37,500 bases of DNA, from the NCBI RefSeq assembly GCF_003600835.1, contig NZ_NQYC01000002.1, positions 265,001 through 302,500 on the forward strand. Direction: 5' to 3'. The stretch comes from Bacillus sp. PK3_68. Lineage in GTDB: Bacteria; Bacillota; Bacilli; Bacillales; Domibacillaceae. Below are positions 2,826 through 18,406 of the stretch, piece by piece; position 1 is the stretch's first letter; the number at the start of each line of letters is the position of its first letter. A model generated the notes under the pieces. That model saw nothing but the letters and a program-made list of their open reading frames with translations. It was not told the origin of the DNA and did no database searches. The position numbers were made by a program, and so were the translations under genes.

Positions 2826-2854
2826 ATAATAACATTTTACAATAATAGTGTCAA
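2826..2854 (-). promoter_or_regulatory. rRNA promoter P2
   Basis: On the minus strand a consensus -35 TTGACA (2849-2854) is followed after exactly 17 bp by -10 TATTAT (2826-2831). It lies about 110 bp upstream of the 16S 5' end, the place of the proximal rrn promoter in Bacillus. Upstream DNA is A/T rich, compatible with an UP element. Confidence 0.9.
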
Positions 2855-2908
2855 CGACTTTTTTTAAAATATTTTTTCTCTATCTCACTGTTTTTAGCAG
2901 CAAAGAGA

Positions 2909-2938
2909 ACTATATCATTCTTTTAAATACGGGGTCAA
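2909..2938 (-). promoter_or_regulatory. rRNA promoter P1
   Basis: A second minus-strand promoter, -35 TTGACC (2933-2938) and -10 TATAGT (2909-2914) with an 18-bp spacer, sits 83-84 bp upstream of P2. Tandem promoters at about this distance are the standard arrangement of Bacillus rrn operons. Together the two argue that the operon is transcribed rather than a dead copy. Confidence 0.8.
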
Positions 2939-3037
2939 TAACTTTTTTAAATATAATAGTAAGTTTTTCTGCTAGGTAGCAATCATCCGAATAAAGAAGA
3001 AGCAAAAATTGAGCCTTGCCAAACTATATAAAAAGAA

Positions 3038-3058
3038 CTCTCTGATTCACTCAAAGAG
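3038..3058 (-). terminator. Rho-independent terminator after the 39-codon ORF
   Basis: Read on the minus strand, CTCTTTGA and TCAGAGAG form an 8-bp stem (one G-U pair) around a 5-nt loop, followed by TTCTTTTT. It begins 10 nt after the stop codon of the small ORF at 3068-3187, supporting that ORF as a real transcription unit. Confidence 0.6.
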
Positions 3059-3067
3059 CCCACCTTC

Positions 3068-3187
3068 TTATTTAACTGACTTTAACTGGTCCTCATTACG
3101 GAACAAGTAAACAAGATAAGCATTCAAATCAAACTGGTTTTTATTGATAAAGTTAGTCAACATCAATTTATTTTCTACAATCACCAT
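3068..3187 (-). CDS. Predicted 39-residue peptide, unknown function
   Basis: This short ATG frame has a strong ribosome binding site (AAAGGAGAGAGAA directly before ATG) and a hairpin-plus-T-run terminator just after its stop. The peptide starts MVIVENKLMLTNFINKNQFD and ends in EDQLKSVK; it is mixed hydrophobic and charged with no signal peptide and no cysteine. I recognise no family (it lacks the SQELD motif of Spo0E-like phosphatases). It sits alone upstream of the rRNA promoters on the same strand. A regulatory or toxin-like peptide is possible, but no function can be read from the sequence. Confidence 0.5.
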   Translation of the reverse strand: MVIVENKLMLTNFINKNQFDLNAYLVYLFRNEDQLKSVK

Positions 3188-3275
3188 TTCTCTCTCCTTT
3201 ACTAAATATTCTTGTCTCTATCATTGCCAATCTTTTATTCTTCTATACATGCAGATGTCTAAAAACTATTGATTA

Positions 3276-3325
3276 ATAAAAAGAGCAACCTCTCCATGTG
3301 CTCATCCACATGGTTATCTCTTTTC
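3276..3325. terminator. Hairpin with A/T flanks, probable bidirectional terminator
   Basis: CCATGTG (3294-3300) and CACATGG (3307-3313) form a stem with a 6-nt loop; outside it AAAAGAG and CTCTTTT pair again, giving A-run and T-run flanks on both strands. It lies between the 39-codon ORF and the lipoprotein gene. Confidence 0.6.
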
Positions 3326-3401
3326 AAAAAGGCCGTTCTTTTATTAAACAGAGCTTTGAAATAAATTTTGATCAACACTACTTCATATTTTATGGTAAAC
3401 A

Positions 3402-3444
3402 AGAAGAATCCATTTTGAAAAATTTAATCAAAATGGATTCTTCT
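3402..3444. repeat. Perfect 17-bp inverted repeat
   Basis: Arms at 3402-3418 and 3428-3444 are perfectly complementary (AGAAGAATCCATTTTGA) with a 9-nt loop. It follows the lipoprotein gene at 3600-4031 by about 150 bp. There is no clean T run, so it may be a terminator or a processing or stability hairpin. The rest of 3188-3599 shows no gene. Confidence 0.6.
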
Positions 3445-3599
3445 CTAGCCGTTTTCAGTTTTGTTTTTTAATCGCTTGGTCCGTTCCTATTTGTGCGCAT
3501 TATCGTTTTAATTGTGGGTAATTGAATTTTAGTTAAATCTCTATCTTTGTTCCGATCGATATGAAACTAACTTACAATGTAATAAACAACGAATAGTTT

Positions 3600-4031
3600 C
3601 TAGCTTTGGGCCAAGGTGCCATTGAAAATTTGTCCGCCTCCATTTACTTTAATGATTTTAAGGCGACTGGTATTTTTGATAAATATAGTTTTATATTGTT
3701 CTTCCCCATTTTCATCTTTAATAAGAAGAATACGTTTCCCTTCGTTATCTGTTACCGTTTGAAATCTATTATCTTTGTCCCCAATCTGCTCAATAATCTT
3801 ATTATATTCAGGTAATGAAGACCATTCCTCATGATTTACACTTTCTGCAGATTGGTTTTGGGCTTGCTCTGTTGGCTGTTCATTTTCTTGCCGCTCTTCT
3901 TGTATGTTCTCTGTTTGTAAAACTTCCTCATTTTTTGGGGTACTCTCATTATTGTCTTTATGTGCCTCATTACTATTACAAGCTGTTAGCATGGATGCAG
4001 CAGCAATGAATGCAATAAACGTTTTGAACAT
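3600..4031 (-). CDS. Small secreted lipoprotein, unknown function
   Basis: The 143-residue product has a short hydrophobic N-terminus and a lipobox LTAC with the lipidated cysteine at residue 18, so it should be anchored to the outer face of the membrane. Residues 19-70 are a low-complexity linker rich in Glu, Gln, Asn and Ser; the folded part is residues 70-143, containing EWSSLPEYNKIIEQIGDK and ending near GGGQIFNGTLAQS. Start ATG at 4031 has AGGAGAGG upstream at suitable spacing. It stands alone between hairpins. I do not recognise the domain. Tail composition is typical of Bacillus lipoproteins. Confidence 0.8.
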   Translation of the reverse strand: MFKTFIAFIAAASMLTACNSNEAHKDNNESTPKNEEVLQTENIQEERQENEQPTEQAQNQSAESVNHEEWSSLPEYNKIIEQIGDKDNRFQTVTDNEGKRILLIKDENGEEQYKTIFIKNTSRLKIIKVNGGGQIFNGTLAQS

Positions 4032-4448
4032 TATTCTTTTCCTCTCCTATTGATGTATTCTTTTTTCATTCTAACAATAAATCTTCTATAGTTGACTTAT
4101 TTTGCTGATTCATTCATCACTCAATGGATTGATATAAAAAGACGAATTAGTTGCATGAAAGCATAGAAAAGAATAAAGCCATTCTCCACATGCTTACTGG
4201 AAAGTGAACGAAAAAACATGCACTCTTTTCTATATACGATCGTTCAACGATTTGAACACTCATGCAGTAGCTAAAATTTTGTATGGTTACTTTTAAGCTT
4301 TAGCAAACCGATTGAAAGAATGATTGCCGCAAAAAAAGAACCTCCCTCAACAAAAAACGACGCGGGAGGTTCTGAACCATTACTCAGATCATTTTATTTT
4401 AGATTGGTTCACTCTCTAATTCCTCTTTTGTTAAAACTCACCTCTCAT
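4032..4448. other. Gene-free stretch
   Basis: No coding region with a ribosome binding site was found on either strand. The one recognisable element is the terminator at 4331-4373. The DNA is AT-rich and otherwise featureless. Confidence 0.5.
4331..4373 (-). terminator. Rho-independent terminator of the two-gene secreted-protein operon
   Basis: AGAACCTCCC (4337-4346) and GGGAGGTTCT (4364-4373) form a perfect 10-bp stem; on the minus strand it is followed by a run of seven T. It lies about 75 bp past the stop of the 55-aa gene and ends that operon. Confidence 0.85.
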
Positions 4449-4616
4449 TTATTCTTCATCCAAGTTTACATAAATTGTATCTTCTTTGACATTAGGTATG
4501 TATTTAACACCTTGGTCATCATTCGCCTTAACCTTTTCATAAACGAAAGTTGATGATATAAATATTAGTCCTACAATAGCACAAACTGAAAGTAGAACTG
4601 TTCTCTTTTTTTTCAT
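4449..4616 (-). CDS. 55-residue membrane-anchored or secreted peptide
   Basis: The product begins MKKKRTVLLSVCAIVGLIFI, a positively charged N-terminus and one hydrophobic helix, then a short acidic exported tail ending NLDEE. Its ATG directly abuts the stop codon of the upstream gene (TAAATG), and the ribosome binding site GGAGG lies inside the end of that gene, so the two are almost certainly co-translated. A terminator follows. No family is recognised. The partner is a secreted protein, so this peptide may assist it or act at the envelope; that is inference. Confidence 0.75.
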   Translation of the reverse strand: MKKKRTVLLSVCAIVGLIFISSTFVYEKVKANDDQGVKYIPNVKEDTIYVNLDEE

Positions 4617-5420
4617 TTAATCGCCTCCGTAACTATATAATTTTTTTGCTTTTGTATTTGTGAGTAATACATATTGGGTAGTAGTTTTTCCGCTCATCTT
4701 TGTTACTTTTATAGAGGTTGCACTCTTTTTATACCTATATTTACTAGTTGTCTTAGTAATATTTTTCATTTCACTTCTAGCACTTGAGGCTTTATTTAAA
4801 TACTGTTGTAAATTATTTACTTTAACATACTTATCATTATAGTGTTTTGCAAAGTGATAATCTATCGATTTATGAATATCAGAAAAAGTTCCTTTATCCC
4901 ATTCTTTAGTCAACTGATCCGTTGAAAAATCTAAAGACGCGTTAACACTTTTAGTAACAACTTTTTTGCCATCTTTAATGACTGCGCTACCTGTATAAGA
5001 CATCTTGGTTCTAACCATCGGTACCGGTTTAGATTTGTCTTGGGAAATAGCAGGTTTTAAGTTAGTAAAAACAAAGGTGCTTTTGTTTTTTCCTTTTTGC
5101 TCTTTTCCTTTTGAGGTCAAAATCTTCGGTGAATTAACTGTAACTACTACACTGTCTACCGTATCCACCCCATAATTTCTCACTTTAACTGTTACACCTG
5201 TAACACTAGGAGTCACATTAATCGTAACAGCGTTCGGCAAAGAAGCTAACCTTTTAAATTCCTTATTGCCAGATTCTGATAATTCACTTTGACTAACGTT
5301 AATAACATCAGATTTTACAAGTACATTTCCTTCATTAAAAGAAGCATAGACTTCACTTTGGTTCCCTGATAAAAATAATAAAAAAACACTAACCATTAAT
5401 AAGTACAAACTCTTTTTCAT
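4617..5420 (-). CDS. Secreted protein with signal peptide, unknown function
   Basis: I place the start at 5420 because ATG there is preceded by GGGAGGAG and opens a classical signal peptide (MKKSLYLLMVSVFLLFLSGN, probable cleavage after EVYA). An upstream in-frame ATG at 5483 has no ribosome binding site. The 267-residue protein has a mid part (about 60-170) with beta-rich repeats such as TINVTPSVTGVTVKVRNYG, resembling an immunoglobulin-like or CARDB-type fold, and a basic C-terminal part rich in Lys and Thr. It forms an operon with the 55-aa gene. Function unknown; a cell-wall-associated role is plausible. Confidence 0.8.
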   Translation of the reverse strand: MKKSLYLLMVSVFLLFLSGNQSEVYASFNEGNVLVKSDVINVSQSELSESGNKEFKRLASLPNAVTINVTPSVTGVTVKVRNYGVDTVDSVVVTVNSPKILTSKGKEQKGKNKSTFVFTNLKPAISQDKSKPVPMVRTKMSYTGSAVIKDGKKVVTKSVNASLDFSTDQLTKEWDKGTFSDIHKSIDYHFAKHYNDKYVKVNNLQQYLNKASSARSEMKNITKTTSKYRYKKSATSIKVTKMSGKTTTQYVLLTNTKAKKLYSYGGD

Positions 5421-5533
5421 CAAATACACTCCTCCCAACTGTTTAGTTACAAATATAAATAAACAGTCAGGAAAAATCATCATTTTAAGGAAAATTATGA
5501 CTATTTACATCAACCATTTTAAGGAAACTGTGT

Positions 5534-6019
5534 CTATATTCCTGCATGATACAAGATATACTTAGCATCTTTTATAAAGCCAACCATTTCCAAACAACCT
5601 TCTATAACGTTTAACAAATCTTTTTTATCAAAAAATTTCTCTTTAACCTCCTCAAGTTCTTCGAGGGTGAGCTTTTCCCTTTCTGTTTCATCCATTGTTT
5701 CTAATTCATAATAATAAACATCGGTGGGAAAAGAGAGGATCACGTCTTTCCATTGTAAAAACATGTTTTCTAGTTCACTAACAGAGTGTTTATTAAAAAC
5801 CGTTACTCCATAATAATTAAAGCCTTTGTATTCAGGGAAAACTAAGCCATATGGTTTCTCTTGATAATCAGGATTAATAGAAGGAACCGTGTAAAACAAA
5901 TTGTTTTCTTCTCCTATTGTTGTATCAATGTAATTTAAAAAGTCATCATGTATACTCAGTTCTTTTAATACTTTATCACTATGCTCTTCTATCAATTCAA
6001 ATTCATGATTAAGTCCCAT
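5534..6019 (-). CDS. Acidic cytoplasmic protein, unknown function
   Basis: The 161-residue product is strongly acidic (many Glu/Asp, for example ELETMDETEREKLTLEELEE) with no signal peptide or membrane segment. ATG at 6019 follows AGAGGAG. Composition, size and position beside a secreted-protein gene would fit an immunity-type or SMI1-like protein, but I cannot identify the family and nearby genes do not include a recognised toxin. It is on the same strand as the downstream secreted-protein gene, about 110 bp away. Confidence 0.75.
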   Translation of the reverse strand: MGLNHEFELIEEHSDKVLKELSIHDDFLNYIDTTIGEENNLFYTVPSINPDYQEKPYGLVFPEYKGFNYYGVTVFNKHSVSELENMFLQWKDVILSFPTDVYYYELETMDETEREKLTLEELEEVKEKFFDKKDLLNVIEGCLEMVGFIKDAKYILYHAGI

Positions 6020-6308
6020 ACTATACTCCTCTTTTCAAATAATAAAGATGGCTCATTAAGGATAAACTGAAAGTTCCAAGGAGAGCTATTTTAGATATAC
6101 ATCACTTTACCGGAAGCCATAAAAAGACTCTTCGACTGAAATATCATTTTTGTAGCTTAACTCCCTTTTTAGTTGAATAACACCTGGCTGTTTTTCTCTA
6201 TCATCCAATCGTTATCCTATTAGCAATTCTCTCATCAACTTGCTGTTATTTTCCTTTTTTATTTCGATAAAAATCTTAATCATTGTTATAGGATGAATAG
6301 TCGGCTAT

Positions 6309-9300
6309 TTATTGTTGCGGCTTCATAAACCTTAAAAGGTCTCCAAAAATGATCTTGTCAGACAGTGTTAACTCTTGTCTCACCACATCTAGATATGGTT
6401 CACAATGATGAGTCCCTGCCGCTTGCCCACTTTCTTTTCTATAACAAATACTATCCTTGTATATGTAATTCTTTGAAATAAAACTGCCATCTCGAAAAAC
6501 AACTGGATAATCTGGATCTCTTGTGAAAAGATCATGACCGAATGAATAATTGTTTTCTTTTTTAATGCCTAAAAGATGGAGAAGTGTTGGACGTATATCA
6601 ATTTCTCCTCCCTGTGTGTCAATGATTTTTCCTTCGTGGCCGGGAATATGGATAATCAGCGGCACCTGGCGATGCTTCATTCGATTAGCCACGTTAATTT
6701 CTTCTCCTAATAACTCACTCAGACCTTCCTCGTATTTTTCAGAAATGCCGTAATGATCCCCGACTAGAACAAACATAGTGTCTTCGTACATCCCTTTTTC
6801 TTTCAATTGTTTAAAAAACATTTCAATGGATTTATCTAAATACCGAACCGTTGTCACATAGCGATTAACAACTCCTTCTTTTGTAGCTGCTGGCTCAATG
6901 AACATATCTTCCTCTTCTAGCAAAAAAGGAAAATGGTTTGTTAAGGTGAGAAATTTCGCATAGTAGGGTTCAGGTATAGTCTCTAAATATTGAATAGACT
7001 GATTGAAGTATGGAATATCTTTAATTCCATAGTTGATTGAATTTTCTTCTGTTACTATGTAATCCTTCTTAGAAAAAAATTTGTCGTAACCTAAAGTCTT
7101 GTACATCGTGTCCCGGTTCCAAAAGGTACTTACATTCCCATGAAATGCAGCAGCATAATAATCCTGTTTTTCTTTTAATAAATGTGGAAGGCTATAGTAC
7201 ACATTTTCCGGTCTTCTTACAAAAACAGAACCGCTTGCTAACGGATAAAGCCCCGTATCAATCATAAATTCTGCGTCAGATGTTTTTCCCTGAGCTGTTT
7301 GATCATATACTTGGCTAAAATAGAAACTGTCTTTAATTAAATCATTAAGAAAAGGGGTTATTTCTTCTCCATTTACTTTTTGATGAATGACAAAGTCTTG
7401 GGTTGATTCCATGCTTATGACTACCACATTTTTTCCTTCTGCTATCCCAAATAAATCCGTTGATTGAAGATTTTTATGCTGAAAATATTCTTGCGGGGCA
7501 ACAGCATCTGCTTCTGTGACCACAAACCGCTCTAAGGATACTTTCATCCCTAAAGCAATGTCATATACATGATAATTCAGCAAACCTAATGACTTAACCA
7601 TTTGTTCCCGATCATAAGATTCAGAAAAAAGGTGAACAGATTTACCAATTCCTAAACCAATTGTTATTATAGTAAACGTTAAACTTGCTGCTGCGTATAA
7701 CTTTTTAGTCTGTTTTCCTACTTTAAAACAAGTAGCTCTCGTTTTAAAAAGAAACCACCCTACCAAAAACAGATCGATAAATAAACAAAGATCCCATGGA
7801 TTCATTAGCTCAACCGTGCTGGCACTCAAGCCGCCCACATTATCAAATTGAAAAAGAATCGGCGCGCTAACAAAGTCAATATAAAAACGATAATATAAGA
7901 GATCCCCATAAAGGATAAAAGTTCCGATAAATAATAATCCGAACAACAGCAGTCTGTTTACCTTTTCACTAAAATAAAAACTAAAGCCCATTACAAATAA
8001 CAGCGAACCAAGGGAACTTATCAATATCACTCCGATGTCAAACCATGATTGGAGGCTAAGGTTAAAGCCTAAAAGGCAAACGATCACTGTTTTCAACCAA
8101 AGAATGCTCGCTATCATTAAAACTAGTTTTATGCCCTCTATGTGTTTCCATCGCTTATTTTGAAACATGGTTTGAAACCTGCTTAATTTTTTATTCATTA
8201 TGTCTTGAAGGATGGCCAATGAAGTTTCAAACTCTTTTAATGTAAGGTTCCCCATTAAGGCAAACTGGATCCAGTTCCGTTGCAGTAAATAGTCACTTTC
8301 ATAACTGATAATGATCCCGTTTTCCTTTAACTGATCCCCCACATTTTTTGAAGAAATACTGTATGGAAGCGGAATAGTCATAATGCCCGGTAAGTAATCC
8401 TCATTTCCTAACACAGTAAACCCAGCATTCGTCAGCATTTTCCTGACCTCATTTGCTAATATATGCCTGCTTTCTACATTTACCTTTTTTACCGCTTCAT
8501 GTAATGCAGAAATCAAGTTTGATGAATGAGTATAAGGGATGCTGTCAGTCATGGCATATATCCCTAAATCTAAATACCTCGGTATCTCTTTATTCGGTGC
8601 AATGGTCTCTTGATGAAACACAATAGCTAGCCCTGGATAAGAACCTAATCCTTTTCCACTAACAGTGCTTGCTAAATAAACATCCTGAAAATCAACAGGA
8701 ACGACTCCAACTGAACTGCAGGCATCTACACATAATTTTATGTGATGCTTTTTGACCACTTCTAGAAGCTTGTTCAAATCGTACAGGTATCCTGTAGATG
8801 TTTCACAATGCACTGTCCAAAGCCAATTTACATCCTGATGGGTTTCAAGAAAGCTCTTAATCTCTTCTGCCGAGATGCCCTCATTCCACCGTTTTTCCAA
8901 TGTATAATGCTCCAAGCCGAACCGCTCTGCATGATCGATTAACCGATAGCCAAATTCTCCATTTGCAAGGATTAATCCTTTTCCAGGAAGTTTCTTTATT
9001 TGAGCAGCTACTAAGTCATTCGCAAGTGTTCCGGTTCCGACTGCGATTTGTGCCTTTTTTGCATTGACCAATTCACATAGTTTTGTTCGAACTGTTTTCA
9101 TTTCATTAATAACCTCGCTAGAGCGATGGGAAATAGCTGTTTTTCTAAAAACTTGCTCTACTTCTTTATGTACTGCCACCGGACCCGGCAAAAAGTTCAT
9201 TTTTTTTGGTTCTCTCTTTTTCTGTTTCATCATTTTAGAAAACGCTTTTGATGTAGTTTCAAATTTCTTCTTAGTTAAATACATCGGTTGAAACATTGCT

Positions 9301-9773
9301 TTTTCTCTTCCAACCATGGGGCCGAATGGTTCAAAGCCAATTCTTTTATATAGCCTGATTTGACGATCAGTACCGGAAATAAGAGCCATGTTATATTGTT
9401 TTTCCAAGCAATAGCTAACGAGTAAGTTTACCAGCTGGTAAAATACCCAGCTTTTTCGATAGTCTCTTTTCACCGAGAGCAACCGCACTTCACAAGGATT
9501 AGCATTCTTTGGTAAATAATGATCTAAATCGTCTATTTTATAATCAAGAGAAAACGGGCGGTTGGCACGCACTGCGATCATTCCGACGATAACTCCCTCG
9601 TCCTTAGCAATAATATAGGTATTTTCCTTATCAAATTTATCTATTAAACGTCGTCCTTGATTTTGTTGATGCTGCGGAATTTCCTCTACAAACGTTTCGT
9701 AATTTAGTTTATAGATTTGTTCCATTTCTTCCGGTTCGGATGCTATTTTATAGGTTAACGTATGTTGTTCCAT
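6309..9773 (-). CDS. Three-domain fusion: FeeM/GNAT-like acyltransferase, class V PLP aminotransferase, LTA-synthase-like enzyme
   Basis: The 1154-residue protein has three enzyme parts. Residues 1-180 are a GNAT-fold domain resembling N-acyl amino acid synthase/autoinducer-synthase-type enzymes (EVRLLSVKRDYRKS at 95-108). Residues 192-530 are a class V PLP aminotransferase of the alanine-glyoxylate/AEP-transaminase type: SHRS near 215-218, ETSTG at 324-328, Asp350 in VDACSSVG, and the probable PLP lysine Lys374 in SGKGLG. Residues 550-745 hold about five membrane helices and 770-1150 an LtaS-type phosphatase/sulfatase-fold domain with Glu789 (MES), nucleophile Thr831 (GKTSDAEF), NHFPF near 946 and Asp1006-His1007 (GDHYG). 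All key residues are intact. ATG follows AGGAGG. It is 56 bp downstream of the PlsY-like gene. The joint substrate is unknown. Confidence 0.92.
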   Translation of the reverse strand: MEQHTLTYKIASEPEEMEQIYKLNYETFVEEIPQHQQNQGRRLIDKFDKENTYIIAKDEGVIVGMIAVRANRPFSLDYKIDDLDHYLPKNANPCEVRLLSVKRDYRKSWVFYQLVNLLVSYCLEKQYNMALISGTDRQIRLYKRIGFEPFGPMVGREKAMFQPMYLTKKKFETTSKAFSKMMKQKKREPKKMNFLPGPVAVHKEVEQVFRKTAISHRSSEVINEMKTVRTKLCELVNAKKAQIAVGTGTLANDLVAAQIKKLPGKGLILANGEFGYRLIDHAERFGLEHYTLEKRWNEGISAEEIKSFLETHQDVNWLWTVHCETSTGYLYDLNKLLEVVKKHHIKLCVDACSSVGVVPVDFQDVYLASTVSGKGLGSYPGLAIVFHQETIAPNKEIPRYLDLGIYAMTDSIPYTHSSNLISALHEAVKKVNVESRHILANEVRKMLTNAGFTVLGNEDYLPGIMTIPLPYSISSKNVGDQLKENGIIISYESDYLLQRNWIQFALMGNLTLKEFETSLAILQDIMNKKLSRFQTMFQNKRWKHIEGIKLVLMIASILWLKTVIVCLLGFNLSLQSWFDIGVILISSLGSLLFVMGFSFYFSEKVNRLLLFGLLFIGTFILYGDLLYYRFYIDFVSAPILFQFDNVGGLSASTVELMNPWDLCLFIDLFLVGWFLFKTRATCFKVGKQTKKLYAAASLTFTIITIGLGIGKSVHLFSESYDREQMVKSLGLLNYHVYDIALGMKVSLERFVVTEADAVAPQEYFQHKNLQSTDLFGIAEGKNVVVISMESTQDFVIHQKVNGEEITPFLNDLIKDSFYFSQVYDQTAQGKTSDAEFMIDTGLYPLASGSVFVRRPENVYYSLPHLLKEKQDYYAAAFHGNVSTFWNRDTMYKTLGYDKFFSKKDYIVTEENSINYGIKDIPYFNQSIQYLETIPEPYYAKFLTLTNHFPFLLEEEDMFIEPAATKEGVVNRYVTTVRYLDKSIEMFFKQLKEKGMYEDTMFVLVGDHYGISEKYEEGLSELLGEEINVANRMKHRQVPLIIHIPGHEGKIIDTQGGEIDIRPTLLHLLGIKKENNYSFGHDLFTRDPDYPVVFRDGSFISKNYIYKDSICYRKESGQAAGTHHCEPYLDVVRQELTLSDKIIFGDLLRFMKPQQ

Positions 9774-9829
9774 TTTGTTGCCTCCTCAAAATAGATTGAA
9801 ATGAAAGAAGTATAAAATAATTTATTGAA

Positions 9830-10411
9830 TCATGCGTCTTTTATGTGTGAAATAACTACAATGACCAATAAACTAAATAGCCCAATAGCAAAATAGTATT
9901 CTCCCAGTATCCAAGCTGTCACAGGAATGGTGGCCATCGAAAAAAGACCAGCTATCGTAAAGTTTCGTACAATCCAATAGCTGATTCCAACGCATGTTCC
10001 TAAAACTCCAATGGCCGGTGGAACTAGAAACAAAGTGGAGGTTAAAAAAACGACGACTCCTTTTCCCCCTTTGAAACCAAGGTGTACCGGCCAAATATGG
10101 CCAATTAACAAGAAAAAAGCGCTAACTAACAGCATGATTTTATTTTGCGGAAAGAAAAGTGTTACGAAAGACAGAACCATCATAACTTTTGCCATATCAA
10201 TCAAAAGTGTAAACACAAACGCTTTCTTTCCTAACTCTCTTCCGGCATTTCTGGCTCCAGCATTCCCGCTCCCAAGTTGGCGAATATCTTTTCCCACTGA
10301 CCACTTGGCGATATAATACGCCCCTGTTATACTTCCAGCACAATAGGCAAGCATAACCATCAATACAATTTTTAAAATGGCGCATTCCCCCAAAAGAATC
10401 CTCATGTACAT
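9830..10411 (-). CDS. PlsY-like glycerol-3-phosphate acyltransferase
   Basis: PlsY enzymes transfer an acyl group from acyl-phosphate to glycerol-3-phosphate, the first step of phospholipid synthesis, in the membrane. The product has the family motifs: GSGNAGARNAGRELG (usual GSGNxGATNxxRxLG) and GFKGGKGVVVFL after HIWPVHLG, plus five or so hydrophobic segments. At about 180-193 residues it is normal length. The start is uncertain: the ATGs at 10411 and 10405 lack a ribosome binding site, whereas a GGGGG element stands 8 nt before an in-frame ATT at 10378, where PlsY proteins usually begin. It lies upstream of the fusion gene on the same strand. A housekeeping plsY is expected elsewhere, so this would be a second copy. 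Confidence 0.85.
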   Translation of the reverse strand: MYMRILLGECAILKIVLMVMLAYCAGSITGAYYIAKWSVGKDIRQLGSGNAGARNAGRELGKKAFVFTLLIDMAKVMMVLSFVTLFFPQNKIMLLVSAFFLLIGHIWPVHLGFKGGKGVVVFLTSTLFLVPPAIGVLGTCVGISYWIVRNFTIAGLFSMATIPVTAWILGEYYFAIGLFSLLVIVVISHIKDA

Positions 10412-10970
10412 ACAATAATTTTTTAACTGCCTACTGACTTCAAATAAGGATCATCCTTGTGTTAACGATTGTTTTTTGGCATTCTGCAGTTATTTTACCA
10501 TAAATAACCATAGGCATCTTGAACTATTCTTTCACCTTGTTCATTAAACAATGCGTCTTAGGAGAGAAATACATATTAGTCTCCTTTTTGCTAGAATTCA
10601 GATTTTGACTTGCTTCTTTATACTAAAGAAATATAAAGCCTAATAGATGAATCTTAAATAAATGTAGTAATGAAAGTATATTCAATTTTATAAGTATAAA
10701 AATCAAATAATAGTAAACAATCAATTCTATAAAAAATAAATCAAAATAAATAATCAAAGTTAATAAGCTCTTTTTTAAAACAGTTTCTAAACCCTTACAA
10801 CAGCTGGACTTATACCAAAAAGAAAGACACCAATATTTGATATATTCATAGATTCACAAGCAATCTATTGAATAATTAATAGACAAGAAGCAATTTACTG
10901 ATACAAAAACCACTTAAGAAGCCATCATTTGTTTTTATGAAAAATAAGAAGCAATCTATTGATAGTAAAT
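10412..10970. other. Gene-free AT-rich stretch with short direct repeats
   Basis: No supported gene was found. An imperfect 15-16 bp direct repeat around AAGCAATCTATTGA occurs near 10859, 10889 (as AAGCAATTTACTGA) and 10949. The stretch separates the envelope locus from the replication region and is very A/T rich; the repeats could be a protein-binding or origin-associated site, but that is a guess. Confidence 0.45.
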
Positions 10971-10976
10971 GAAATA

Positions 10977-11018
10977 AAAAAGAGAACGGCTTCTTGGTAA
11001 GAGGCCATTCTCTTAAAA
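10977..11018 (-). terminator. Hairpin terminator downstream of the minus-strand replication gene
   Basis: AAGAGAA and TTCTCTT, with inner pairs GGC/GCC and TCTT/AAGA, form a long imperfect stem. On the minus strand it runs into six T. It lies about 100 bp past the end of the replication gene at 11120. Confidence 0.65.
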
Positions 11019-11036
11019 AAGGAGCATAGATAAAAG

Positions 11037-11074
11037 AAAATCCAAGAACAGATACAAGTTCTTGGATTTTTTAT
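11037..11074. terminator. Second hairpin terminator, probably bidirectional
   Basis: AAATCCAAGAAC and GTTCTTGGATTT form a perfect 12-bp stem with an 8-nt loop, followed on the plus strand by TTTTTT. With the hairpin at 10977 it makes a tandem terminator that insulates the replication gene from the envelope locus. Confidence 0.8.
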
Positions 11075-11119
11075 ACACGAGAAATAGCCTTGTTTGACTA
11101 AAAATTTAAAAACAAGGCA

Positions 11120-12277
11120 TTAGATGAAATGCAGGGCTGGTACTTGTCCTGTTTGGATATATTCGTTGTACTTGGCCTGATGCATTTTATCGTATGGAAT
11201 TTTTTTAAGTTCTTTAGGAAGCTCTCGTCGATAAATGGTCCGAAAATAGGCGCCGATGGACGTATGGAACGAGAACTTTCCTTTACGGTTGATTTGTGTT
11301 CGAATATGCTGTTCAAATTGATCCAGGCAGCGGAAAAACAGAGATTCTGCCCAAGCATCACGGTATGTATAACGCTCTTCACTTTCGTCTTCATCGATCA
11401 AGTATTTGACAATGTCAAGTACCTCTTGTTTAAAGGACAGCATGATATCAAAAAGATCTCGGGGCTTGTAGCGCAGTTTTAGCCCATTGAGTATATAAAG
11501 CGTGTGCTCCTGAAATTTAGCCAAAAGCGGCTCGACATGAAATTCATCTGTATTCTCTTTTACACATTCCGGTTTTAAGCGGAAAATCGCTTTTCGGATC
11601 CACAACTGGCAGCCGCGGACTTGAACGCCTGTATATTCGATGTCAAAAAGAGGTTGTAAAATGGCCAATACCTCTCTTACCCCTTTTGCTCTTTTCTTCA
11701 ATTTTTCTTTTAATGTATGCATGGTCCGTGCTTGTTCAAGAGCTGCCACTTCGTTTTTACGATCAAGTTTGGCGATTCCATGTCGAAATTGATTGAATAG
11801 AGAAAACATGAGTTCAAACGCTTCCGGATTAGAGGTGCGCACAAACTCGGCTACAATCGTCGTATCCAAGAGGGTATGAGGGACGATAAAATAATTCAAT
11901 TCATGGCCGTTCTTTAATTCAGGAGTAGTATATTCCTGATAATTGGCTAACACCCATGCAGGCAGTCCGTTTGGCAGAATTTCTTCATAAAGAAAGCCAT
12001 GTTCTTCTAAGAATTTACGTCCCGCATGCATCGTCGAATAAGCCACATGCAATTTTTTGCTCCAAAAAGCGAGATTAAACTCTTGGACTTTGCCCTGGCT
12101 ATTTTTTTCCAAATGAATTTGTTTTAATACAGAAAGCAGAACGGCATAGGCACTCGCTGGTACTTGCCGTTTTTGTTCTTTTTGGAAGACACGAAGATCT
12201 TCGAGCAACTGATGTGGGAAACGGAAGCCATCCATTTTCACTATTTGCCGTTTGCTTTGCTTACGGAATTTTGCCAT
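11120..12277 (-). CDS. Putative plasmid replication protein, winged-helix type
   Basis: The 385-residue basic cytoplasmic protein has an N-terminal part (about 40-100) that reads as a winged helix-turn-helix of the Rep type (FWSKKLHVAYSTMHAGRKFL). It is transcribed away from the iteron array and pairs with the divergent gene at 12999. I choose ATG 12277 because AAGGGAGGG is 7 nt upstream; ATG 12283 is too close to that site. A TATAAT -10 box lies at 12320-12325 on the minus strand, without a strong -35. Assignment as replication protein rests on the fold impression and its position by the iterons, not on a clear family match. Confidence 0.7.
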   Translation of the reverse strand: MAKFRKQSKRQIVKMDGFRFPHQLLEDLRVFQKEQKRQVPASAYAVLLSVLKQIHLEKNSQGKVQEFNLAFWSKKLHVAYSTMHAGRKFLEEHGFLYEEILPNGLPAWVLANYQEYTTPELKNGHELNYFIVPHTLLDTTIVAEFVRTSNPEAFELMFSLFNQFRHGIAKLDRKNEVAALEQARTMHTLKEKLKKRAKGVREVLAILQPLFDIEYTGVQVRGCQLWIRKAIFRLKPECVKENTDEFHVEPLLAKFQEHTLYILNGLKLRYKPRDLFDIMLSFKQEVLDIVKYLIDEDESEERYTYRDAWAESLFFRCLDQFEQHIRTQINRKGKFSFHTSIGAYFRTIYRRELPKELKKIPYDKMHQAKYNEYIQTGQVPALHFI

Positions 12278-12319
12278 TTTCATACCCTCCCTTCTAGCGG
12301 TTTATGTATAAGTATGTCT

Positions 12320-12325
12320 ATTATA
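12320..12325 (-). promoter_or_regulatory. Probable -10 element of the minus-strand replication gene
   Basis: TATAAT on the minus strand, 43 bp before the chosen ATG at 12277. The -35 region is weak, so activity may depend on, or be controlled by, proteins binding the neighbouring TGGCAA site at 12367-12372. Confidence 0.5.
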
Positions 12326-12380
12326 CACGACGCCTTTTTTCGAATAGGCTCTCTCTAAGAGAAAAGTGGCAAATTTTAAA

Positions 12381-12422
12381 GAGCCCCTCAGCCCAGTCAG
12401 GTCAAGGGCTCAGAGATTTTTT
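12381..12422 (+). terminator. GC-rich hairpin with T run between replication gene and iterons
   Basis: GAGCCC (12381-12386) and GGGCTC (12406-12411) can pair, and a T-rich run follows on the plus strand from 12416. It lies in the divergent intergenic region, so it could end transcription coming leftwards or rightwards or be part of a small control RNA. Neither is shown. Confidence 0.45.
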
Positions 12423-12434
12423 AAAATTTTTTCA

Positions 12435-12829
12435 GGTGCACGGGTAGGACGGAGCAAAATGGAAAGTGGCAAGGTTCAAGTGGAAAGACTTTTTGACTGC
12501 ATGCTTCACAAACGTTGATTTAGCGGGCTTTATAAAAAATCCCTATTTAAAAAAGGTGCACGGGTAGGACGGAGAATTTTTAAAGTGGCAAGAAAAAGGT
12601 GCACGGGTAGGACGGAGCAAAATGGAAAATGGCAAGAAAGGTGCACGGGTAGGACGGAAAGTGGCAAAAAAACGGTGGTTTTCGACTAAATCCGCCTCTT
12701 TTTATCCAAATATAGGAATAAATAAAAGAAAAAGGTGCACGGGTAGGACGAAGGAATAATGAAAATGGCAAGAAAGATGCACGGATAGGACAGAAATGTG
12801 GAAAGAAAAAGGTGCACAGGTAGGACGGG
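12435..12829 (+). repeat. Iteron array: seven 19-bp copies, probable replication origin
   Basis: The 19-bp repeat GGTGCACGGGTAGGACGGA begins at 12435, 12555, 12598 and 12640 (perfect), 12734 (last bases changed), 12776 (three or more changes) and 12811 (two changes). All copies point the same way; several are spaced 42-43 bp, four helical turns. After most copies comes a second conserved box ending in TGGCAA (12467, 12586, 12630, 12662, 12766), so the true unit is about 42 bp with two boxes. The array sits between two divergent putative replication genes. Directly repeated iterons with helical phasing are the hallmark of iteron-controlled theta-replicating plasmids. Confidence 0.88.
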
Positions 12830-12916
12830 GAATAGAACAAAAGTGGAAAGGATCAGTAAACACAAGGAGAACTAGCAACTGTAGGAGCACCGTCTCTTCA
12901 AAGAAAAGAGATGATC

Positions 12917-12937
12917 AAAATGGCAAGTTGCCATTTT
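12917..12937. promoter_or_regulatory. 21-bp palindromic operator over the -35 of the plus-strand replication gene
   Basis: AAAATGGCAA and TTGCCATTTT flank a single G, a perfect palindrome. Each arm contains the TGGCAA box that is repeated through the iteron array. It overlaps the -35 of the promoter below, the usual layout for autoregulation by a replication protein binding one site as a repressor and others as an initiator. Confidence 0.75.
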
Positions 12938-12957
12938 TACGATAGAACTGGCATAAT
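12928..12957 (+). promoter_or_regulatory. Promoter of the plus-strand replication gene
   Basis: TTGCCA (12928-12933) and CATAAT (12952-12957) with an 18-bp spacer, 42 bp before the ATG at 12999. The -35 is the right arm of the palindrome. Confidence 0.65.
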
Positions 12958-12998
12958 GAAGGTATCCATATAGACAGAACGACTTGGGGAGAGATAGC

Positions 12999-14795
12999 AT
13001 GGCGGAATACATTAACCCTAATAAACTCGCACTAAGTGAAGACTTTTTTAAACTTGCCGTTTTAGAAGAAGTCCAAAGGTATTTTTCCAACAACTATATT
13101 ATTGAAGAATGGCAACAGTATGTCACAAGTGAAATTAATCAAACGTTTGATAATCAAAAAGCGTATAGAAGTTTTGATTGGTTATGTGAGATTGTGCGCT
13201 CCCTGCTAGTGAGCAAAAAAGTCACTCAGGAAAATATACGGGAAGTCTTCAGAAAACATCACACATATGTGTTGGAACAAGTCAGCAGCTATATTAACCA
13301 GGACTTTCCGTTGGATGTACATCTTAGTGTTAACGAAGCGGCTGTCCAATTTGCCAAAGAAGAGCGGCATTTGGTCTCCAGCATGGATTATCAGTTTCAT
13401 CTAGTAAGAAATATCGTGACACAGCCTAAGGCCTTTGTGGCGGCTAGTGAAGCAGACGATCTCTTTCAAGCAGAAATTAAAGATTCTAAAGGCAACATTC
13501 ATGGAATGGCACGCGTCAATGTGGCAGGAGGAATGGACATGCCTTTTACGGATGAAGAACAGGAGTATTGGGATAAACTCCGGACGGCATTTAGTGCCAT
13601 GGATGAAATGACAGCCGATATTTTTGATATTATTTGTTTTCTGTTTCTTTTTGCGCCAAAAGATGAAGATGGTTACCTGTATTTTCACTCCAATGATGCG
13701 CTGAAATTAAGAAGCAACCTTGTGGACCCGAATAGCAGCCTGGAAGTCCGGGAAAGAGACCGTTTTAACATTATGTCAAGAGTCAAGGCTCTTTCTAATA
13801 TTTGGATTTCATTGAAAGAGGGAGAGGTCATTGAAGTCGATGAAAATGATTTAAAAGAAAGCAAAAAGTATAAATACAGGGATTTTCAGAAAATGTTTGA
13901 GGTAGGAAAAGTACGGGCAGCTTATGACGAGAACGATAAATTTTTAGGTATCTATGCCTGTCAAATCAAACCAACATCGTTATTAACGTCTTTTCTGAAT
14001 GAAAATAAACGCTTAGGCATTATTGACTTAAGCGCATTGGAGTTTCATCCCGTGCGGCAGCGTCCGGAGAAGCGACTGGCACGTTACCTTGCGACACAAT
14101 GGTTTATTCGTCTGTCTAAAAATAATTTACATCAGCCTTTTATGGTCAAAACGCTCATCCGGGAAATTGATTTCCCTGCACGGATGAGAGGACTAGACAT
14201 GTACGACCGCTTTGTCAAAGCGTTAGATGAACTAACAAACAAAGGCATTGTAAGAGACTGGCATTTTACGGACCCTGTCGACTTCAGTTTGTTTGGCCGA
14301 ACCGGCTGGTTGTCTTATTTTTACGGGCTGAAGGTAGCCATTACCCCTTCTGCTGAAATGATGGAAAAAAATAAAAGAAAGCTGTCGATCTTACAGGATC
14401 AGCACCAGGTAGATTCATCAACTGTTAATCAAATGATTGAATCACTTAGTCAACCAGTTGTCATCCAACAAGTTGGATATCGGAGCATAGAGCAGCAAGC
14501 TTCCCCTTTAAGAAGAGAGCCGGAGGCAGAAGCATCTCAGCTTTCCCTTCCCCTATCGGAACCTAAAAAGAATGATGAACCTCTTCCGCCACTTACAGAG
14601 GAATCCTTAACGGCTGAAATGGTCATCCAAGAAAGAGAGCGGCGAGGACTTTCACTTGCGAAAGCAGCAAAAGAGATAGGGATTGGTTACAATACATTGA
14701 AACGATTTGAGAATAAGGAAACCAAAAGAAGAAATAAGAAGAACGATATGAAGATTGTTCAATGGTTGAAAAAGTCCCTAATACTAGAAGATTAA
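12999..14795 (+). CDS. Putative replication initiator with C-terminal helix-turn-helix
   Basis: The 598-residue protein starts at ATG 12999 (GGGGAGAG upstream); an in-frame TTG at 12984 overlaps that site and is unlikely. The body is acidic-to-neutral and cytoplasmic, with a mid region (about 260-420) that could be a winged-helix replication fold. After a Pro/Glu-rich linker (about 480-540) comes an XRE-type helix-turn-helix (RGLSLAKAAKEIGIGYNTLK) and a basic tail. It lies next to the iterons behind a palindromic operator and ends before a strong terminator. The role as initiator or copy-number controller is inferred from position and the DNA-binding tail; I do not recognise the family. Confidence 0.72.
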   Translation: MAEYINPNKLALSEDFFKLAVLEEVQRYFSNNYIIEEWQQYVTSEINQTFDNQKAYRSFDWLCEIVRSLLVSKKVTQENIREVFRKHHTYVLEQVSSYINQDFPLDVHLSVNEAAVQFAKEERHLVSSMDYQFHLVRNIVTQPKAFVAASEADDLFQAEIKDSKGNIHGMARVNVAGGMDMPFTDEEQEYWDKLRTAFSAMDEMTADIFDIICFLFLFAPKDEDGYLYFHSNDALKLRSNLVDPNSSLEVRERDRFNIMSRVKALSNIWISLKEGEVIEVDENDLKESKKYKYRDFQKMFEVGKVRAAYDENDKFLGIYACQIKPTSLLTSFLNENKRLGIIDLSALEFHPVRQRPEKRLARYLATQWFIRLSKNNLHQPFMVKTLIREIDFPARMRGLDMYDRFVKALDELTNKGIVRDWHFTDPVDFSLFGRTGWLSYFYGLKVAITPSAEMMEKNKRKLSILQDQHQVDSSTVNQMIESLSQPVVIQQVGYRSIEQQASPLRREPEAEASQLSLPLSEPKKNDEPLPPLTEESLTAEMVIQERERRGLSLAKAAKEIGIGYNTLKRFENKETKRRNKKNDMKIVQWLKKSLILED

Positions 14796-17180: not shown

Positions 17181-18317
17181 TTACCTAGATAGGCTCATAT
17201 CTGTAATTTCAATCCCTTTAGCTTGGCAGTACATTAGCAAAATTTTAAAATAGGCACGTGAAATCATCCAAATGCTGTCCTCTGTCTTTGTAAAACGTAA
17301 TGGATACTGCTTATCCTCATCATTTAGCTTGGATAGATAGGGTCTCAAGATGACAGATCCTCCACCGATTTGGTAAGCTAGACGAATATCAGGCACCGAT
17401 CGCCATAGGTTCTTGATTAATTTATACTCTTCTTTCGCTAAAATCATTAGCTCGCTGTCAATTAGCGCTTTAATGGAGATCCGATTTCCATCTTTCCAAA
17501 TGTAGTATTGTTCCTCTGGATCCTCATTCGTAATAATCTCAACTAAGGCTCGACGACTTTTAATGGTGTATTTGTATTCCTTGTAAACTTTCCGGATAAT
17601 ATTATCTAAGTAAGTGGATACTCCTTGTTTAATGCCATCGGAGTACTCATTGTCCACCTCTGCCTCTTTTGTAATAATGGCTGAGTCGGTAGAGAGTCCT
17701 CCTATATCATTTATTAAAATTGTTTTCCCAATTAACTCTTCATTTTTAGTAGAGCCATCATTATTAGTAGTTAAGTCGATATAAGCAGCAAAGCCCTCTG
17801 TGTTGACGAGTACTTGTTCAAATTTAATTCTGACTGTTTTCCCCTCTAGCTCTGGTGTTTTCAGGAAAGTCACCTGATGCTGTCCACTCTTAAGTTTTTT
17901 CCGGAATACTTTATTCAATTCTCTTTTTGTTTCATCCAAGGGTAGACCTGTTGAAAGAATATATGTAGCTTCAATAATTCCATCATGCTCCTCAAAATGA
18001 CGTGTGGCATCTATAGCCAAGGTGGTTAGCAGCAAAACAATAGGCTGATCGGAAGAACTTTTATCATTTTCAGGCGTTAATTCGTCGTTGTTTGGATATT
18101 TACTTGCCAGCTTCCCTACTGCGAAACGTTTCGAAGTTTCTTTTAAAGCAGAGGATTGAACTTCAACATGGAGAGCATTTAACGGCTCTTTCTCCATTTC
18201 TACAATAGTTCGGTCAGGGAGCTCCGCAATGACGTTCGGAATGTATAGTGTTTCTTCCAGTCCGTTTAAATAAGCTTTAACGGCATCATTGCCAATATCC
18301 ACGCTAGCTAATCTCAT
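17181..18317 (-). CDS. ParM/Alp-type actin-like plasmid segregation ATPase
   Basis: The 378-residue protein begins MRLASVDIGNDAVKAYLNG, the phosphate-1 motif of the actin/ParM fold. Further actin-fold features are a central ILINDIGGLSTDSAII (phosphate 2, about 205-220) and a later GGGSVILRPYL (about 320-330, adenosine motif). Length is normal for ParM-like proteins. ATP-driven filaments of this family push or pull plasmid copies apart. I choose ATG 18317 because TAGGAGG lies 7 nt upstream; an ATG at 18380 would lie inside the promoter. It is the first gene of a two-gene operon with the ParR-like gene. Confidence 0.9.
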   Translation of the reverse strand: MRLASVDIGNDAVKAYLNGLEETLYIPNVIAELPDRTIVEMEKEPLNALHVEVQSSALKETSKRFAVGKLASKYPNNDELTPENDKSSSDQPIVLLLTTLAIDATRHFEEHDGIIEATYILSTGLPLDETKRELNKVFRKKLKSGQHQVTFLKTPELEGKTVRIKFEQVLVNTEGFAAYIDLTTNNDGSTKNEELIGKTILINDIGGLSTDSAIITKEAEVDNEYSDGIKQGVSTYLDNIIRKVYKEYKYTIKSRRALVEIITNEDPEEQYYIWKDGNRISIKALIDSELMILAKEEYKLIKNLWRSVPDIRLAYQIGGGSVILRPYLSKLNDEDKQYPLRFTKTEDSIWMISRAYFKILLMYCQAKGIEITDMSLSR

Positions 18318-18351
18318 GTCTTTATACCTCCTAGAATAAGTTTCTAATTTT

Positions 18352-18406
18352 ATTGTATACATTTTTGTAAACAAAATCAATAGTTGTATACAAAAATGTA
18401 TACAAT
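18352..18406. promoter_or_regulatory. parMR promoter and operator or centromere with GTATAC palindromes
   Basis: An 18-bp perfect inverted repeat (ATTGTATACATTTTTGTA at 18352-18369, complement at 18389-18406) encloses 19 bp. Three GTATAC palindromes stand at 18355, 18386 and 18398. On the minus strand a promoter with -35 TTGATT (18375-18380) and -10 TACAAT (18352-18357), spacer 17 bp, overlaps the sites. In ParMRC systems the ParR-binding repeats (parC) lie over the par promoter and autoregulate it; this array is the best candidate here. Confidence 0.75.

Follow-up and report, generated by a model that had tools for sequence, protein, structure and literature searches.

A plsY-like and GNAT-aminotransferase gene cassette of Bacillales, often accompanied by ltaS, as a candidate pathway for an acylated aminolipid

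Introduction

In the OlsB/OlsA and GlsB/GlsA aminolipid pathways, a GNAT-type N-acyltransferase works beside an O-acyltransferase, and two acyl chains are placed on an amine-bearing product (accessible excerpts of PMC11631085). Here we analyse a 37,500-nucleotide stretch of Bacillus sp. PK3_68 (contig NZ_NQYC01000002.1, positions 265,001 to 302,500 of the forward strand), the whole of which is called the window below. It contains a gene for a PlsY-like acyltransferase, followed by a reading frame that joins a GNAT domain and a class V aminotransferase (together GNAT-AT) to an enzyme of the lipoteichoic acid (LTA) synthase type, LtaS. We tentatively read the locus, from its sequence and that of its relatives, as a cassette for an N- and O-acylated amino-glycerophospholipid-like membrane lipid, often with a dedicated LTA-synthase-type enzyme. 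The second acyltransferase of the cassette is of the PlsY type, which uses acyl phosphate, whereas that of the Ols and Gls pathways is of the PlsC/LPLAT type in the same excerpts. Furthermore, the GNAT domain of the cassette is fused to an aminotransferase, which would give it an amine supply of its own, LtaS is often attached, and the cassette occurs in Bacillota. A sequence-only reading of the window had proposed that the pathway was without prior description, and none is recognisable in the accessible parts of the open-licence PubMed Central literature, a scope that leaves out subscription papers and bioRxiv.

The individual enzymes of the cassette have well-characterized relatives. FeeM (PDB: 2g0b) and the LuxI-type N-acyl homoserine lactone (AHL) synthases BjaI (5w8e) and TofI (3p2h) produce N-acyl amino acids or homoserine lactones. 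They share the GNAT fold with the cassette protein, which matches the Pfam FeeM model over its cut-off, whereas the identity is about 13–17% and the cassette domain is fused to an aminotransferase and lies in an operon with plsY. 2-Aminoethylphosphonate (AEP) transaminases, including PntC-AEPT (6pd1), have the same class V fold and pyridoxal phosphate (PLP) lysine as the cassette aminotransferase. PntC-AEPT is a precedent for the fusion of an aminotransferase to a headgroup enzyme; its partner is a cytidylyltransferase instead of a GNAT domain, and an arginine conserved in these transaminases is a glutamine in the cassette. The PlsY of Aquifex (5xj5) and the cassette PlsY have in common the family, the acyl-phosphate site His92, and most of the phosphate clamp, but differ by the change of Ser142 to Gly, a relaxed Asn180, and Arg in place of Thr41 in 24 of 37 cassette sequences. 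All eight catalytic-site positions checked are shared between LtaS (2w8d, 2w5q) and the cassette LtaS, which nevertheless forms a clade of its own, and the window copy scores below the LtaS equivalog cut-off. Cj1437 of Campylobacter jejuni is comparable in its reaction: it converts dihydroxyacetone phosphate (DHAP) to serinol phosphate, and its product decorates a capsule, unlike the lipid proposed for the cassette (accessible excerpts of PMC11800397).

Results and discussion

Organization and distribution of the cassette

The locus in the window consists of the following features:

9830..10411, minus strand: plsY-like acyltransferase gene, 193 amino acids, gene 1 of the cassette (PF02660; profile match to 5xj5; own clade)
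9240..9773, minus strand: GNAT domain, residues 1–178, FeeM/LuxI type, presumed N-acyltransferase (PF21926; AlphaFold2 model; Foldseek)
8172..9215, minus strand: class V PLP aminotransferase domain, residues 187–534, with Lys374 kept and Gln503 where Arg is usual (profiles, alignments)
8186..8191, minus strand: A6 run in frame at the joint between GNAT-AT and LtaS (sequence)
6309..8168, minus strand: LtaS part, M536 to residue 1154 and the stop codon, with its own ATG and a Shine-Dalgarno-like AGCAGG (NF053595; separate frame in 41 other loci)
6309..9773, minus strand: fused GNAT-AT-LtaS frame, 1154 amino acids, window only (open reading frame; locus comparison)
2835..10685, no strand: block containing the cassette, unlike the homologous plasmid pPM400 (NZ_CP082364.1), which matches both flanks (blastn)

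The sequence-only reading had described a 1154-residue protein with three domains, encoded behind a PlsY-like gene, and both genes are present. The frame at 6309–9773 is open over 1154 codons, and its GNAT, class V aminotransferase (Aminotran_5, 39.8 bits against a cut-off of 21.5), and LtaS-type (Sulfatase, 133.2 bits against 25, residues 781–1070) parts exceed the Pfam cut-offs and keep their key residues. The sole Pfam match of the 193-residue frame upstream is G3P_acyltransf (PF02660), with 118 bits against 24.1.

In a search of 397 genomes sampled from the order, the GNAT-AT part was present in 65, including that of the window; these 65 represent 22 of 135 genera. We compared 71 loci: the window, those of the 64 other genomes of the order, and six named loci from Oceanobacillus jordanicus, Planococcus sp. 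MER TA 32b, a contig labelled Roseburia sp. 1XD42-34, Mesobacillus maritimus, Rossellomorea sp. BNER, and a plasmid of Cytobacillus spongiae. In 69 of them (62 by reading frame, six more by tblastn, and the window itself), the gene for PlsY immediately precedes GNAT-AT, and it is separated from GNAT-AT by no more than 20 bp, or overlaps it, in 51 of the 62 loci measured by reading frame. Neither method detected plsY upstream in the Planococcus (L007) and Rossellomorea (L012) loci. The apparent absence of plsY from nine loci, obtained with a simple longest-frame gene caller whose start sites and overlaps are rough, was reduced to these two by tblastn. The N-terminal extensions of GNAT-AT in L072, L083, L086, and L087 were rejected as extra fusions, since they overlap plsY genes located by tblastn.

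A separate ltaS frame is positioned just downstream of GNAT-AT in 41 of the 71 loci (36 among the 64 genomes of the order and five among the six named loci), and 17 of these 41 are joined to GNAT-AT by an exact 4-bp overlap. Three of the 41 contain a damaged gene: a 66-residue piece of ltaS in L091, ltaS in two pieces in L073, and GNAT-AT in two pieces in L121. The neighbours differ among the loci missing ltaS, and no consistent substitute gene was seen in the neighbourhoods fetched. PlsY is thus a conserved neighbour, and the gene order agrees with the earlier proposal that the enzymes belong together.

In a sample of 398 genomes of the phylum, 25 genomes have a match at 1e-40. Full-length GNAT-AT is present in that of the window and in two outside the order (G738 and G777), and the matches in the other 22 are to the aminotransferase only. 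In G738 and G777, plsY is upstream of GNAT-AT, broken into two frames in G777, and ltaS was not found in the stretches fetched around the two genes. Within the 397-genome sample, GNAT-AT has no match in the one other genome of the window's genus, nor in the 14 of its family. In several genomes, the contig that carries the cassette is of chromosome size; in two, those of Cytobacillus spongiae and the window, it is a plasmid or resembles one.

Fusion of GNAT-AT to LtaS

GNAT-AT and LtaS occupy one frame only in the window among the 71 loci. The triple fusion, which the sequence-only reading took for the functional unit, is therefore rejected in that role, and the unit is instead the cassette of plsY-like gene, GNAT-AT, and, where present, ltaS. 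In the 41 other ltaS-bearing loci, GNAT-AT (about 530–540 residues) and LtaS (mostly about 600–650 residues) are separate reading frames. The fused frame of the window crosses the A6 run (8186–8191), then an AGCAGG that resembles a Shine-Dalgarno site, and then an in-frame ATG at 8168–8166 that corresponds to M536. The LtaS part was likely once, or likely still is, a separate ltaS gene starting at M536. The joint may reflect a genuine indel, an error in sequencing, or slippage. One of the first two is no less likely than a functional fusion, and the single polypeptide of the window is probably incidental.

The assembly of the window cannot be called poor, because the other LtaS, PlsY, and decarboxylase-like matches of the genome have no internal stops. 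Together with a frame that stays open over 1154 codons, this lack of an evident high error rate speaks for a single fused enzyme that carries all three activities, in which case the triple fusion itself would be the novelty. However, the occurrence of the fusion in one of 71 loci, the A6 run in frame, and the retention by ltaS of its own ATG and Shine-Dalgarno-like site make a fused enzyme improbable.

GNAT domain

The GNAT domain matches the Pfam models FeeM (PF21926, residues 19–153, 41.1 bits against a cut-off of 27) and Acetyltransf_5 (PF13444, 31.1 bits against 22.4). It was modelled by AlphaFold2 with a predicted local distance difference test (pLDDT) score of 90.7, and the whole of GNAT-AT with a mean of 89.5. 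In a Foldseek search with the model, the best template modelling (TM) scores, normalized to the query, among the 50 matches listed belong to BjaI (0.78), TofI (0.74), and FeeM (0.72), which are about 13–17% identical to the domain in sequence. The best E-value among the matches listed is that of a small acetyltransferase (5jph) with a TM score of 0.68–0.69. Sequence search alone found BjaI at an E-value of 0.52. The earlier description of the domain as FeeM-like is supported by both the fold and the Pfam match.

Aminotransferase domain

The aminotransferase domain resembles AEP and alanine-glyoxylate aminotransferases, and its nearest solved relatives include 7e7g and 1m32. In an alignment of 61 of the 70 usable GNAT-AT rows, Lys374, to which the sequence-only reading had assigned the PLP-binding role, is invariant (61/61), and Asp350 and Glu324 are likewise kept. 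The best NCBIfam transaminase match is AepZ (TIGR03301), which covers residues 194–526 with 141.1 bits, below its cut-off of 360.8.

All 61 family members have Gln503 at a position where solved relatives have arginine. The arginine is present in the printed alignments of AEP transaminases (7e7g, 1m32, 9kk8, 9kka, and 6pd1) and in those of 1vjo, 2dr1, and 9os7, the whole set covering AEP, alanine-glyoxylate, PH1308, and MpMetRS-domain aminotransferases. We take this arginine, which belongs to the FRIG motif of the AEP transaminases, to bind the acid group of the substrate in the relatives. The position was also inspected in 12 aminotransferase-only relatives, which are from 11 of the 12 loci available for the 22 aminotransferase-only matches of the phylum sample (L192 was omitted for an internal stop) and from L025 of the window genome itself. 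Eleven of them have Arg, and the exception, in G695, has Gln. Two further relatives checked have Arg, and a relative from Sulfitobacter sp. SK012 is of the Gln type.

The Gln-type aminotransferase of G695 has as neighbours a glycerol kinase (TIGR01311, 711 bits against 590), a DeoR-type repressor, and an ELFV (glutamate-type) dehydrogenase, and the row also holds parts of a UgpA/UgpB-like ATP-binding cassette (ABC) transporter that score under their own cut-offs. That of Sulfitobacter is located beside a CDP-alcohol phosphatidyltransferase and a phosphocholine cytidylyltransferase-like (nucleotidyltransferase) gene. Both settings are compatible with an amino alcohol phosphate or a C3 polyol, for example the pair DHAP and serinol phosphate. 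The G695 genes (L203:4494-15740), which include an oxidoreductase, ABC transporter parts, and two amidohydrolases, might form a catabolic row for serinol or amino-polyols, and the row on the Sulfitobacter plasmid (L220:5995-8810) might provide a route to a phospholipid with an amino-alcohol headgroup.

Two further candidates were rejected. His216 and Arg217, presumably SerC-like phosphate residues, do not discriminate the family, as 11 of the 12 aminotransferase-only controls also have them. The N-terminal domains of the M. penetrans MetRS (9os7) are not a second GNAT-AT but only another aminotransferase fusion, since the N-terminal domain is likened to a nucleotidyltransferase in the accessible excerpts of PMC13215547.

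PlsY-like acyltransferase

The cassette PlsY scores 87.1 bits with TIGR00023, the curated PlsY equivalog model, which is below the cut-off of 137.2, and the family profile matches the solved PlsY 5xj5 at 3.6e-39. We aligned 37 of 62 cassette sequences (from 69 loci with plsY) with 31 non-cassette PlsY, the top-scoring ones from the window genome and 30 cassette genomes; the control from L155 is partial and third copies were left out. In the tree, the 37 cassette sequences fall into a clade of their own, separate from the 31 others (support 0.96).

According to the accessible excerpts of PMC5700162, Ser35, Arg45, Lys104, and Asn180 of the Aquifex enzyme (aaPlsY) clamp the phosphate, Ser142 and His177 contact the 2-hydroxyl of glycerol phosphate, and Thr41 and His92 belong to the acyl-phosphate site; among 7,288 PlsY homologues, Arg occurs at position 41 in 3.0% and Gly at position 142 in 5.2%. 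In the cassette PlsY, Ser35, Arg45, His92, and Lys104 are kept in 37/37 sequences and His177 in 36/37. Position 142 is Gly in 34 of the 37, in contrast to Ser in all 31 other PlsY. We read the acceptor, from these residues, as a C3 phosphate that would be changed at carbon 2. The sequence-only reading took this PlsY for an acyl-glycerophosphate maker. It belongs to that family and has most of the phosphate clamp, but the altered contact to the 2-hydroxyl sets it apart from an ordinary copy.

LtaS and its partnership with the cassette

The LtaS equivalog model NF053595 matches residues 550–1153 of the fused frame with 609.9 bits, below its cut-off of 970, and the best match of the cassette LtaS family profile to a solved LtaS is 6.5e-152. 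In an alignment of 26 of 39 cassette LtaS sequences, the catalytic-site positions E789, H878, W885, R887, H947, Asp1006, and His1007 are conserved in 26/26, whereas Thr831 is Thr in 23 and Ser in three. We assume that the eight residues have the roles of their counterparts in S. aureus LtaS. The residues named beforehand (Lys374, Thr831, and Asp1006-His1007) are all present and conserved across the aligned family members.

The cassette LtaS is 42, 37, and 36% identical to three other LtaS-like proteins of the window genome. In a tree of 54 sequences, the 26 cassette LtaS form one clade (support 0.80) together with the unlinked LtaS of the GNAT-AT genomes G139 and G323; the clade contains no LtaS from three other genomes without adjacent ltaS (G030, G233, and G126). 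The cassette LtaS profile reaches at least 820 bits in 49 of 65 GNAT-AT genomes (36 with linked or fused copies, 13 with unlinked ones) and in 20 of 332 others. The corresponding counts are 48 versus 18 at 835 bits, 39 versus 3 at 900 bits, and 27 versus 2 at 1000 bits. When only unlinked copies are considered, LtaS is present in 13 of the 29 GNAT-AT genomes that lack an intact neighbouring ltaS, versus 20 of 332 (Fisher p 7e-8, with kinship ignored).

Six of the 20 genomes with LtaS and without GNAT-AT were examined. Two contain decayed cassettes: G070 has plsY, a 149-residue GNAT-AT remnant, and ltaS (L208:7042-9923), and G267 has an 84-residue plsY remnant and ltaS (L217:7317-9620). No cassette is located beside ltaS in the other four (G394, G053, G315, and G020).

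Unlinked ltaS genes in L206, L207, and L209 (genomes G374, G394, and G335) encode proteins 71–72% identical to the window's LtaS, whereas the identity of GNAT-AT to that of the window is no more than about 49–50% in G374 and G335. Judged from these identities, components of the cassette may have undergone exchange. PhzF-like genes are located near all three ltaS genes. On a plasmid of Bacteroides finegoldii (L020:5308-10493), an LtaS-family gene is located beside genes for a phosphotransferase, a CDP-glycerol glycerophosphotransferase, a class V aminotransferase, and a cytidylyltransferase-family protein, and the row sits among glycosyltransferases.

Proposed pathway

The three activities other than LtaS (amination of a C3 phosphate, N-acylation, and O-acylation) fit one product. 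From the gene order, clades, and kept or changed residues observed here, we infer every reaction and product of the following pathway. The aminotransferase would aminate a phosphorylated C3 carbonyl compound without a carboxylate, most likely DHAP, yielding serinol phosphate; the transamination of DHAP to (S)-serinol phosphate has a precedent in Cj1437 (accessible excerpts of PMC11800397). The fused FeeM/LuxI-type GNAT would then acylate the amine of serinol phosphate from acyl carrier protein or coenzyme A thioesters, and the divergent PlsY would acylate the remaining primary hydroxyl from acyl phosphate, resulting in a 2-amido analogue of phosphatidic acid. Alternatively, PlsY might act first, on DHAP. 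Where present, the cassette LtaS would use the lipid or a derivative as the anchor or donor for a polymer of the polyglycerolphosphate type. In its most specific and rather doubtful form, the proposal is that serinol (2-amino-1,3-propanediol) replaces glycerol in a phospholipid of bacilli, with one amide-linked and one ester-linked chain, and that the dedicated LtaS uses this lipid for an alternative LTA. If true, bacterial phospholipids would have a second kind of backbone, or Bacillota a new class of aminolipids made with a PlsY-type second acyltransferase. Either would change the view of LTA anchors and PlsY specificity, and could explain the extra plsY and ltaS genes kept by several bacilli.

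Several observations weigh against this proposal. The loss of the arginine at position 503 raises the question of how an amino-acid donor is held. The comparison of Gln-type enzymes involves two stand-alone relatives, with no other in the class of G695 (one of 17 genomes), and the Sulfitobacter setting equally fits the conversion of glycolaldehyde phosphate to phosphoethanolamine. In the cassette PlsY, position 180 is Asn in 11/37 sequences, as opposed to 31/31 other PlsY, and position 41 is Thr in 13/37 and Arg in 24/37, as opposed to Thr in all 30 controls with a letter there. The window PlsY has Asp at position 180, and the change of Asn180 to Asp costs aaPlsY more than 95% of its activity (accessible excerpts of PMC5700162). 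The acceptor or rate of the cassette PlsY may therefore differ more than supposed. The core can do without LtaS, because 16 of the 65 GNAT-AT genomes have no LtaS of at least 820 bits. Its co-occurrence with GNAT-AT is weak independent evidence, as the profile derives from linked copies, which makes it partly circular, and the threshold was chosen post hoc. The 13 unlinked LtaS belong to only three genera (g64, g80, and g84), and the link fails in g80, where LtaS is present in three of seven GNAT-AT genomes and in one listed without GNAT-AT (G394). The case for the partnership of LtaS with the cassette is thus mainly one of gene order.

The similarity in shape to FeeM, BjaI, and TofI, the closest by TM score, would also suit a GNAT-AT that makes a free N-acylated amine or amino acid, used as a signal or surfactant, with plsY and ltaS as mere envelope-related neighbours in the operon. 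The dispensability of ltaS, a separate copy of which closely follows GNAT-AT in 41 of 71 loci, is consistent with this explanation. However, a free product needs no second, altered acyltransferase, whereas 69 of 71 loci retain plsY, in most cases almost abutting GNAT-AT, and the acceptor pocket of PlsY is altered, and we consider a free product unlikely. It is quite improbable that the extra PlsY is an ordinary second glycerol-3-phosphate acyltransferase and GNAT-AT is unrelated to it or inactive. Paralogues of PlsY are common (two or three matches in each of 30 cassette genomes, the cassette copy counted), and the positions 180, 142, and 41 differ from those of the usual enzyme; nevertheless, the well-supported PlsY clade, the invariant Ser35, Arg45, His92, and Lys104, and the invariance of Lys374 and of GNAT residues suggest that selection acts on functional enzymes.

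The general proposal of the sequence-only reading, in which an N-acylated amine is connected to lipid or LTA metabolism, remains the most economical one, while its aminophosphonate version is disfavoured. In this version, the aminotransferase would make 2-aminoethylphosphonate, which would be N-acylated or placed on a teichoic-type polymer. The AEP transaminases 7e7g and 1m32 among the nearest solved relatives and the rank of AepZ among NCBIfam transaminase matches point in this direction, but the AepZ score is far under its cut-off, and the arginine kept by the five printed AEP transaminases, PntC-AEPT included, is Gln in 61/61 family members. Phosphonopyruvate decarboxylase is over its cut-off in none of 31 cassette genomes, that of the window among them, but also in none of 14 controls, and the search did not include phosphoenolpyruvate mutase. 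Some weak match to the decarboxylase model is present in 29 of the 31, with two-part matches of about 101 and 56–58 bits against 312.5 in G015 and G211. An aminophosphonate product is highly unlikely.

Plasmid-like element around the cassette

The window is part of a 351,837-bp contig (G000:C2:265001-302500) that accompanies a 4.48-Mb contig in the assembly. The backbone of the smaller contig is homologous to the plasmid pPM400 of Pseudobacillus badius (formerly Bacillus badius; NZ_CP082364.1), with 99.2% identity in the 16S gene and 85.7% in a helix-turn-helix (HTH) frame at 12984–14795, which is likely the gene for a replication protein. By blastn, pPM400 matches positions 1–2834 at 98.7% and 10686–14795 at 78.1%, and differs in the block in between (2835–10685), which contains the cassette.

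The plasmid-like contig carries rRNA genes. Positions 1–2718 of the window (minus strand) contain a small-subunit (SSU) rRNA gene and the start of a large-subunit gene, a second SSU copy is located at G000:C2:191145-192698, and pPM400 also has an SSU gene. Upstream of the HTH frame, positions 12434–12849 contain several short repeated matches to pPM400 that resemble iterons. A frame at 17181–18380 (minus strand) encodes an Alp7A-like actin (Pfam, 52.3 bits against a cut-off of 22), a type known for plasmid segregation.

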